Assembly: GCA_030834485.1 (NCBI GenBank)
Contig: JAUREX010000006.1
Location: 1 to 33,271, forward strand
Length of the DNA stretch: 33,271 nucleotides
Source of the DNA: Gemmobacter sp.
GTDB taxonomy: Bacteria; Pseudomonadota; Alphaproteobacteria; Rhodobacterales; Rhodobacteraceae
Direction: 5' to 3'
Shown here in pieces: positions 15,396 through 18,252 of the stretch (its first letter is position 1; every line of letters starts with the position of its first letter). The position numbers and the translations under genes were made by a program. A model generated the notes under the pieces. It saw nothing but the letters and a program-made list of their open reading frames with translations, made no database searches and was not told the DNA's origin.

Positions 15396-16013
15396 TCAGT
15401 TCTTGTGCGCGACCGTCCGCCAGAGGCCTTCGGTGATGAGCCGCCCGCCCGCGATGGCCGAATTGGCCCTGCGGCCGCGCGTCAGCAGCGGAAAGGGCAG
15501 GAACTTCGTCGACATGTAGCCGCCGCCGCGCATCGCCGAGTCGGCCCGCCGCCCCCGCGACAGGAGCGGGATGCCGAAGGCGTTCGAGATCAGCCCGCGC
15601 GCGAGATCGGCGCCCGGGATCATGTCCATGCTGAAGAAGCGCGGATGATCGGTCAGCACGCTGAGGTAGAGGTCCGAGCGGGCCGCCTCGGAGACATAGG
15701 CGTTCTCATCCGCGACGCCCGAGCGCAGCGGGTCGTGCGCATCGACGATCTGCATCGCGAGGCGCGCCGCCCCGATCGGGTTGAAGGGCGCGCGGCAGAC
15801 GACAAGCGCCTTGCCCCCGGCCGACATCTGGCCGGCATAGATCGCGGCCGAGGCCGCCGGCACGCGGGCCGCGCGGATCGCGGCCGCGGTGTCGCCCGCG
15901 CCCGCCTCGATCACATCGACGATCGCGGCCGGGAAGCCCTCGGCATGAAGCGCGTCGGCGACGGCCTGCGCCTTCGATTTGCTCGCATAGAGCCTTGAGA
16001 CGATGGTGGTCAT
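15396..16013 (-). CDS. Uncharacterised protein at the end of the puc operon, with duplicated PLL(S/T)RGRRA(D/N)SA motif
   Basis: 205 aa starting MTTIVSRLYASKSKAQAVADALHAEG; co-directional with and 75 nt downstream of pucC. Confidence 0.75.
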   Translation of the reverse strand: MTTIVSRLYASKSKAQAVADALHAEGFPAAIVDVIEAGAGDTAAAIRAARVPAASAAIYAGQMSAGGKALVVCRAPFNPIGAARLAMQIVDAHDPLRSGVADENAYVSEAARSDLYLSVLTDHPRFFSMDMIPGADLARGLISNAFGIPLLSRGRRADSAMRGGGYMSTKFLPFPLLTRGRRANSAIAGGRLITEGLWRTVAHKN

Positions 16014-16088
16014 GCTTTCCTCCGGTTCTCGGGCCCTTGGCGGGCCGCTTGGGTCTTCGAACGCGCGCGCAACGCGCATTCGCTTGTT

Positions 16089-17483
16089 CTAGCCTTGCGC
16101 GGCGCGACGTCTAGTCGCCTCGCGCATCAGCGGCAGCGCCGTCGCGAGCGCGACGAGGAGCAGGATCAGTTCGATCGCGAAGACGGCGACATAGGGGCCC
16201 TCGGCGCCATGGGCCGGGTCGGGCAGCGCGCGGATCAGATCGCGCAGGATCCCCGCGAGCGCGACCGCAAGCCCCGCCGCCGTCGCCTGCACCGCCCCCC
16301 ATGCCCCGAGCGCGAGGCCGATCTGCGCACGCGGCGCGGCCCGCATCGTGGCGGTCAGGGTCGCATGGCCGAAGATGCCCGCGCCGATCCCGACGAGGAG
16401 CACCGCGAGGATGAAGAGGCCCGTGCCCGTCCCGAAGGACGCAAGGATGATCGCGCCGAACCCCGGCAACCCGATCAGCGCCCCGAGTGCCGCGAGGCGC
16501 AGCGGAATGCCGCCCCGCCCAAGCACCCGCGCCGCGAGCGCGATGCCGATCAGTCCGCCCGCCGCCATCACCGCCGTGAGCCGCGTGGTCTGCGCGACCG
16601 ACATGCCGAGAACCTCGCCGCCATAGGGTTCGAGCAGCACATCCGCCATCCCGTAGCCCGCCGTGCCAAGCGCCACGAGCGCCAGGAGCCGCAGCGTCCC
16701 CGGCACGCGCATGAGGCCCGACCACGCCTCGGCGAATTCGGGCCGGGGCGTGGTGTCGGCGGCGCGGCGTCGGTCGCGCGGCTCCTGCTTCCAGATGGCG
16801 ACGACATTGAGCACGATGGTCGCGACCGCCGCCCCCTGCACGACGCGGATGAGGCGGCCGGGGGTGTAATCCTCAAGGAGCGCGCCGAAGATCAGCGCGC
16901 TGCCGATCATCCCGGCCAGAAGGGTCACATACATCAGCCCCACGACCCGCGGCTGGTCGGCCTCGGGCACAAGGTCGGTCGCGAGCGCAAGCCCGACCGT
17001 CTGGACCATATGCGCCCCCGCCCCGACCAGCAGGAACGCGATCGCAGCCCCGAGCGGGCCGAGCCAGAAGGGCGCATCGACAGCCTCGCCATAGCCCGAC
17101 AGCACCAGAAGCGCGAAGGGCATGATCGCGAAGCCGCCGAACTGCAGCATCGTGCCCTTCCAGATGAAGGGCACGCGCCGCCAGCCAAGCGCCGAGCGGT
17201 GCACATCCGAGCGATACCCCATGAGGGCGCGCAGGGGCGCAAACACCAGCGGCAGCGCCAGCATCACGCCGACGAGGGCGGCCGAGAGCTTCAGCTCGAC
17301 GATCATCACGCGATTGAGCGTGCCGACGAGCAGCACGAGCGACATGCCGACGCTGATCTGAAAGAGCGAGAGCCGCAGCAGACGCGCCAGCGGCAGATCG
17401 GGTGTCGCGACATCGGCGAAGGGTAGATAGCGCGGGGCCATGCGCGCCAGATTTCCGATCACATAGGCGCGGAAGTCGGCCAT
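16089..17483 (-). CDS. pucC: PucC/LhaA-family light-harvesting complex assembly protein (BCD family of MFS)
   Basis: 464 aa polytopic; LLRLSLFQISVGMSLVLLVGTLNRVMIVEL, ALMGYRSDVHRSALGWRRVPFIWKGTMLQFGGFAIMPFALLVLSG are PucC hallmarks. Confidence 0.93.
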   Translation of the reverse strand: MADFRAYVIGNLARMAPRYLPFADVATPDLPLARLLRLSLFQISVGMSLVLLVGTLNRVMIVELKLSAALVGVMLALPLVFAPLRALMGYRSDVHRSALGWRRVPFIWKGTMLQFGGFAIMPFALLVLSGYGEAVDAPFWLGPLGAAIAFLLVGAGAHMVQTVGLALATDLVPEADQPRVVGLMYVTLLAGMIGSALIFGALLEDYTPGRLIRVVQGAAVATIVLNVVAIWKQEPRDRRRAADTTPRPEFAEAWSGLMRVPGTLRLLALVALGTAGYGMADVLLEPYGGEVLGMSVAQTTRLTAVMAAGGLIGIALAARVLGRGGIPLRLAALGALIGLPGFGAIILASFGTGTGLFILAVLLVGIGAGIFGHATLTATMRAAPRAQIGLALGAWGAVQATAAGLAVALAGILRDLIRALPDPAHGAEGPYVAVFAIELILLLVALATALPLMREATRRRAAQG

Positions 17484-17584: not shown

Positions 17585-17905
17585 TCAGTTCAGCGTAGCC
17601 GAACCCGCCGGAGCGCCGATCACGGCGCGCGCCGTGGTTCCGTCAGGCAGGATCACGAGGACCTGCTGGCCGACAGCGGCGGCGCCGCCCTCGACAAAGG
17701 CCACCTTGGCCACGCCATCGGCCGGCAGCGGCAGGGCTGCGGTCGCGCCCGCGCCGAGCGGCTGGCCCGAGAGGAAGTCGGCAACCCAGGTCGTGTTGCT
17801 CAGCACCGCGACATGCACGGCGAACGAGCCCACGGCCACGGCCGACAGGAAGAGGGGGATGCCGACCGTCGGCTTGACGACCAGCCACATCTTTGCGTTG
17901 TTCAT
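17585..17905 (-). CDS. pucA: Light-harvesting complex 2 alpha polypeptide with extended C-terminus
   Basis: MNNAKMWLVVKPTVGIPLFLSAVAVGSFAVHVAVLSNTTWVADFLSG aligns without gaps to LH2 alpha (K5, W7, P12, P17, H31, TTW40); AAGGAGG Shine-Dalgarno upstream. Confidence 0.95.
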   Translation of the reverse strand: MNNAKMWLVVKPTVGIPLFLSAVAVGSFAVHVAVLSNTTWVADFLSGQPLGAGATAALPLPADGVAKVAFVEGGAAAVGQQVLVILPDGTTARAVIGAPAGSATLN

Positions 17906-17919
17906 CTTGCGATCCTCCT

Positions 17920-18078
17920 TCAGCCGAGCCAGGGCGTCGTTGCGGCAACGAGGATGTGCGCGAGCAGGGCGATCGCCCCGAAGACGCGCGTGCCGTCGAT
18001 GAGGTAGCTGTGCACCTCTTCGGCTTCCTTCAGCGTCAGGCCGGTTGGCCAGACCTTGTCATGGTCATTTGCGGACAT
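17920..18078 (-). CDS. pucB: Light-harvesting complex 2 beta polypeptide (52 aa, not in the supplied ORF track)
   Basis: Reverse-strand translation MSANDHDKVWPTGLTLKEAEEVHSYLIDGTRVFGAIALLAHILVAATTPWLG*; GGAGG Shine-Dalgarno 5 nt upstream of ATG. Confidence 0.95.
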   Translation of the reverse strand: MSANDHDKVWPTGLTLKEAEEVHSYLIDGTRVFGAIALLAHILVAATTPWLG

Positions 18079-18208: not shown

Positions 18209-18226
18209 TGTCACAGTATGTGGACA
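18209..18226 (-). promoter_or_regulatory. PpsR/CrtJ-type operator 1 (TGT-N12-ACA), overlapping putative -10
   Basis: TGTCACAGTATGTGGACA; putative -10 TACTGT on minus strand at 18213-18218. Confidence 0.65.
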
Positions 18227-18234
18227 GCGGCAAG

Positions 18235-18252
18235 TGTAAATTGGGGCTGACA
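18235..18252 (-). promoter_or_regulatory. PpsR/CrtJ-type operator 2 (TGT-N12-ACA), overlapping putative -35
   Basis: TGTAAATTGGGGCTGACA; putative -35 TTTACA on minus strand at 18235-18240, 16 nt from the putative -10. Confidence 0.65.

Follow-up and report, generated by a model that had tools for sequence, protein, structure and literature searches.

The only puc operon in the genome of this Gemmobacter sp. encodes, with a probability of about 0.78, a regular LH4-like peripheral antenna with a B800-only spectrum at ~804–806 nm, under PpsR-type control. We infer the spectrum and the pattern of expression from features that are read directly, namely the PucA residues and their register, the single copy of the operon, its orthology to a complex of measured spectrum, and the promoter sites. 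The window, i.e., the whole stretch of 33,271 nucleotides that was analysed, comes from an alphaproteobacterium of the Rhodobacterales type that is phototrophic and has no rubisco. Its antenna belongs to a known type, as the F44L45 motif of "LH4-like" antennae has already been published (PMC12654162), and the spectral class proposed by a sequence-only reading, LH3, is probably wrong. The prediction for this antenna moves from LH3 to the B800-806 type.

The operon lies on the minus strand in the order pucB-pucA-pucC-ORF205. pucB (17920..18078, minus strand), identified from the ORF list and by Pfam LHC, encodes an LH2 beta subunit of 52 amino acids with His and Arg at the positions where they are expected (EEVHSYLIDGTRVF...AH), in agreement with the sequence-only reading. 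The NCBIfam model NF040862 (pufB, LH1 beta) scores pucB 17920-18078 above its cut-off, so that automatic annotation may say LH1; this label was rejected for PucB, as the gene adjoins pucA and pucC and a separate pufBA is present. pucA (17585..17905, minus strand) encodes the LH2 alpha subunit, which is 106 amino acids in length from its ATG, contains F44-L45, V41, and S27, and, like PucB, matches Pfam LHC (48.2 bits for PucA against a cut-off of 23). The pucC product (16089..17483, minus strand; PF03209, PUCC, 475.7 bits) is a BChl-delivery/assembly MFS protein of 464 amino acids. The fourth puc gene, ORF205 (15396..16013, minus strand, with an in-frame ATG further up at 16079), specifies a protein of 205 amino acids with an alpha/beta N-domain and C-terminal modules of ~25 residues. 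The sequence-only reading did not mention V41 or S27, nor the ~58-residue extension of PucA, the tandem PpsR-type sites, or the fourth gene.

Comparison of PucA with the PDB by phmmer gave gapless alignments over the first 46–50 residues with 7ze3, 7pbw, 8z81, 7ze8, and 7zcu, the best PDB match being 7ze3 (Rps. palustris PucD-LH2). W7, H31, W40, F44, and L45 are in register with the Y44-Y45 of R. sphaeroides and the Y44-W45 of Rps. palustris, and the alpha subunit of the B800-820 complex 1ijd reads W40-Y41-A-A-F44-L45. These solved LH2 alpha subunits and 1ijd confirm the earlier statement that PucA aligns without gaps and that F44-L45 is in register with the acetyl-bonding residues. The LHC profile, the W7/H31 register, and the partner genes pucB and pucC identify PucA as an LH2-type alpha subunit. 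Codons 44-45 (17771..17776, minus strand; assigned from the sequence and the PDB register) place Phe-Leu at the position of the acetyl-H-bonding Tyr-Tyr/Trp, and codon 41 (17783..17785, minus strand) specifies Val at the position of the H-bonding Tyr of B800-820 LH3, so that PucA has no H-bond donor at 41, 44, or 45. PucA thus carries the F44 with L/M/F45 of LH3 (signatures in PMC5069747; 1ijd), but V41 in place of the alpha-Tyr41 that provides the one remaining acetyl H bond in 1ijd; F44-L45 with no donor at 41/44/45 is the combination of the LH4-like antennae of aerobic phototrophs. The LH4 signature of Rhodopseudomonas, M26, F44, and M45 (PMC5069747), is absent from PucA, in which position 26 is Gly, and the missing M26 counts against the LH4-like reading.

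Residues 49–106 (17588..17761, minus strand) form a C-terminal extension, modelled by AlphaFold as a loose, flexible linker followed by a predicted beta-hairpin with strands 80–85 and 91–96 (about 17618-17668, minus strand; pLDDT ~76–83). D88-G89 is invariant across the relatives that carry the extension, and the hairpin consensus within 17588-17761 reads VLVxLPDGTxAxAVL.

The structural basis for the expected spectrum comes from a comparison of nine structures, in which two C3-acetyl H bonds accompany absorption at ~850 nm, one at ~825 nm, and none at ~803 nm (PMC9618040). LH3 (1ijd) keeps one H bond via alpha-Tyr41 and absorbs at 820–824 nm, and PucD-LH2, with V41-F44-M45 and no acetyl H bond, absorbs only at 803 nm (PMC9618040). 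A blue shift of B850 through loss of the two acetyl H bonds is well supported by the PucA residues. In the proposed mechanism, PucA and PucB would assemble into an LH2 ring that binds B800 together with a ring of "B850" BChls; neither C3-acetyl would receive an H bond from Phe44, Leu45, or Val41, and the "B850" band would shift to about 804–806 nm and merge with B800. The outcome would be the LH4-like B800-only spectrum seen in D. shibae and Roseobacter, not B800-820, in an antenna serving as the regular peripheral complex of the cell under PpsR-type control.

Loss of two bonds alone need not give 804 nm, however: the R. sphaeroides complex engineered from YY to FL, in which position 41 is Leu and S27 is retained, has its band at 826 nm (PMC9618040). 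Orthology to D. shibae is stronger evidence on the spectrum than the H-bond count. The PucA of D. shibae DFL12, though only about 62% identical to that of the window, likewise carries F44-L45, V41, S27, and a C-terminal extension, and the bands of this species lie at 804 nm (single peripheral) and 868 nm (PMC10890935, PMC12654162). A 2025 review describes F44L45 as shared by the LH4-like antennae of aerobic phototrophs, in which they are the exclusive peripheral complex (PMC12654162). On the strength of an orthologue at 804 nm with the same 27/41/44/45 residues, together with this review, a single band at ~804–806 nm is a more likely expectation for this organism than B800-820.

The true LH3 originally proposed, a bimodal B800-820/826 antenna, takes its appeal from an F44-L45 pair identical to that of 1ijd and from the 826 nm FL mutant with Ser27 (PMC9618040), a residue kept in the window. 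It is nevertheless improbable, as PucA is without Y41 and D. shibae, with identical residues at 27/41/44/45, absorbs at 804 nm rather than 820 nm; V41 and the D. shibae spectrum lead us to reject an assignment to LH3 by the residue pair alone. The part of that proposal that stands is a blue-shifted B850 through the loss of two acetyl H bonds; the B800-820 class is made unlikely by Val41 and the ~804 nm of D. shibae. The retention of S27 in D. shibae also suggests, from this one species, that S27 by itself is not enough to keep absorption at 826 nm. Very remote indeed is an ordinary B800-850 complex whose red absorption is restored by other residues (e.g., S27 or a beta residue): Roseicyclus elongatum, whose genus is close to some FL-type loci, has a listed absorption of 802 nm with a shoulder at 850 nm (PMC12654162), but absorption at 850 nm is always paired with two C3-acetyl H bonds among the nine structures (PMC9618040). 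The LH4-like B800-only antenna is the reading preferred here.

Four LHC-type genes, pucBA and pufBA, were found in the whole draft genome (2.44 Mb, 338 contigs, estimated 100% complete), with pufBA on a contig other than that of pucBA and two more PUCC-family genes on other contigs. With one pucBA and one pufBA in a draft of this completeness, the window puc is the only peripheral antenna of the genome, and the idea that it might be an alternative or low-light puc set was not borne out. No RuBisCO was found in the whole genome, which fits an aerobic photoheterotroph. A plasmid location of puc was rejected, as a PucA search of PLSDB gave no match.

The distribution of this PucA type was followed in a family sample of 397 genomes, one per genus, and in 192 PucA-like stretches of a named genome collection, 80 of which were kept. 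A PucA-like match was present in 54 of the 397 family genomes. F44-L45 occurred in 72 of the 80 named loci, F44-A45 in five, and Y44-L45 in three; V41 was found in all FL-type named loci (72/72) and in 41/41 family PucAs, and S27 in 72/72 FL-type named loci. Nearly all FL PucAs have a C-terminal extension of about 45–75 residues, and within this family PucAs of the YY, YH, and YW types end in short or low-complexity tails. F44-L45/V41 is therefore the commonest PucA type in Rhodobacterales, rather than the unusual feature in a Rhodobacteraceae-like background that it had been taken for. In a PucC tree, the window falls in a single large clade that is mostly FL, with the YY-type operons outside it; the exact placement is unsure owing to long branches, that of the window included. 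Within the FL clade, the Tyr44-Leu45 combination was regained on four occasions (L044, L045, L052, L172), three of them with Tyr41. Tyr44 occurs, for instance, in Tateyamaria pelophila (with V41) and in Thetidibacter halocola (with Y41), for both of which absorption red-shifted from 805 nm is predicted. One large puc clade has F44-L45/V41 as its norm and provides natural tests of the H-bond tuning rule, e.g., in the Y44/Y41 reversals. The presence of S27 in all FL members, despite the 804 nm band of D. shibae, bears on the S27 question raised in PMC9618040.

Control of the operon by a PpsR-type regulator is suggested by two PpsR/CrtJ-type sites (TGT-N12-ACA) upstream of pucB, at 18209..18226 and, 26 bp from the first, at 18235..18252. 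These are the only two such sites in the whole window, for which 0.83 would be expected by chance. Most relatives have a similar pair about 110–190 bp ahead of pucB, and at least one PpsR-type site is present upstream of pucB in 75 of 79 loci, versus 0.08 per kb elsewhere. The puc genes of D. shibae are under PpsR control (PMC10890935).

The fourth puc gene is a conserved, so far undescribed repeat-protein gene that may encode a further antenna component. Within the stretch covered, a homologue lies by pucC, nearly always directly downstream, in 68 of the 80 named loci; of the remaining 12, some are cut off too soon to show one or may contain divergent members. Among the 397 family genomes at E <= 1e-3, the gene was found in 45/45 genomes with an extended/FL-clade PucA, 2/9 with another PucA, and 3/343 without PucA; at E <= 1e-10 the counts were 44/45, 1/9, and 1/343. 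Two of the 45 genomes are atypical: G231, whose tail is short, and G322, whose reading frame is broken. Fisher's p for this distribution is about 1e-54, uncorrected for kinship. R. sphaeroides-type puc loci contained no fourth-gene homologue. In D. shibae, a family member directly follows pucC, which brings the total to four genes, as many as in the puc operon published as Dshi_2897-2900. In other alphaproteobacterial families, a gene of this type was at or near pucBA in 9 of the 10 class-sample genomes judged to carry pucBA on the basis of an LHC pair distinct from the puf-like pair. In seven of these nine (L181-L184, L186-L188) the fourth-gene profile matched in both halves, above all 300 shuffles. 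In three MAGs labelled Roseibium, Roseitalea, and Phyllobacteriaceae (L050, L072, L087) the gene is upstream of pucBA and inverted, indicating that the link to puc survives rearrangement.

The N-domain of the fourth protein is modelled as an alpha/beta domain (residues 1–110, pLDDT over 90). The C-terminal part, of low model confidence, consists of modules spaced mostly 25–27 residues apart, which in the window read ...FGIPLLSRGRR...SAMRGGGYMSTKFLPFPLLTRGRR...; across the family their number ranges from two or three to about eight, the latter in long forms such as L083. The homologues L075 and L173 have shorter modules of ~15 residues, most with a His (e.g., FPFGHLVPGHK) that is a possible pigment ligand. 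Sequence searches of the PDB gave no credible homologue, a fold search with the model gave vague matches only and nothing under E 0.001, and Pfam and NCBIfam contained no entry naming the family.

Co-occurrence and gene order make it most likely that the fourth product acts together with the LH2 ring, either as an assembly factor or as a ribbon attached to it. A rather unlikely alternative is a role in regulation or stress only, as a YflT-like protein with no physical link to LH2. Sub-threshold similarity to PF11181 in 5 of 36 members (best 6e-4) speaks for it, but the gene is almost wholly confined to puc genomes, adjoins pucC or pucBA in several families, and has a tandem-module build. Within the preferred LH2-associated reading, it is possible, if tentative, that the gene encodes a gamma-type subunit, a module-repeat ribbon round the LH2 ring that would carry extra BChls or stabilise the ring. 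The gamma subunit of Rps. palustris is an extended protein of 97 residues with six 16-residue repeats, each binding BChl through Ser, and was reported, by BLASTp, only in Rhodopseudomonas (PMC9618040). Three locus numbers separate its gene, RPA1495, from pucBe/pucAe (RPA1491/1492; numbers from PMC5069747 and PMC9618040). Over its repeats, gamma aligns in register with the relative L183 (E 6e-5), and against period-keeping shuffles gamma ranked 1 of 2001 for L183, L184, and L181, though not for the other three tested; with the Rhodobacterales members alone it had no sequence match. Relatives of the L183 kind would escape a BLASTp search.

This likeness to gamma is suggestive rather than proof. 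Should the gene product prove to be an LH2 subunit, many alphaproteobacterial phototrophs contain a component of a textbook complex that has escaped notice. If it is of the gamma type, subunits of this kind would be general among the LH2 systems of Alphaproteobacteria, R. sphaeroides and its closest kin excepted, and the gamma of Rps. palustris would be a shortened representative of them instead of a Rhodopseudomonas invention.

Among known systems, LH2-gamma of Rps. palustris (7zcu chain S) resembles the fourth protein in having its gene in the puc locus, in its tandem short modules with a P-L-[LI]-x-[KR] core, and in the little secondary structure predicted for the repeat part. The fourth protein differs in its N-terminal domain of ~105 residues and in modules of ~25 rather than 16 residues. 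For the antenna itself, the B800-820 LH3 of Rbl. acidophilus 7050 (1ijd) has F44-L45 as in the window, but its Y41 keeps one H bond where the window has V41. Rps. palustris PucD-LH2/LH4 (7ze3) shares the lack of a donor at alpha-41/44/45; it has M45 where the window has L45, and the window is without M26, contains only one puc set, and has a PucA with a long extension. The B800-804/806 LH4-like antenna of D. shibae and Roseobacter (Niedzwiedzki 2011 and Duquesne 2011, as summarized in PMC12654162 and PMC9618040) has F44-L45 in common with the window and is likewise the sole peripheral antenna. With D. shibae, a species of a different genus, the window also shares V41, S27, and a long C-terminal extension of PucA, as well as the pucB-pucA-pucC-ORF operon.
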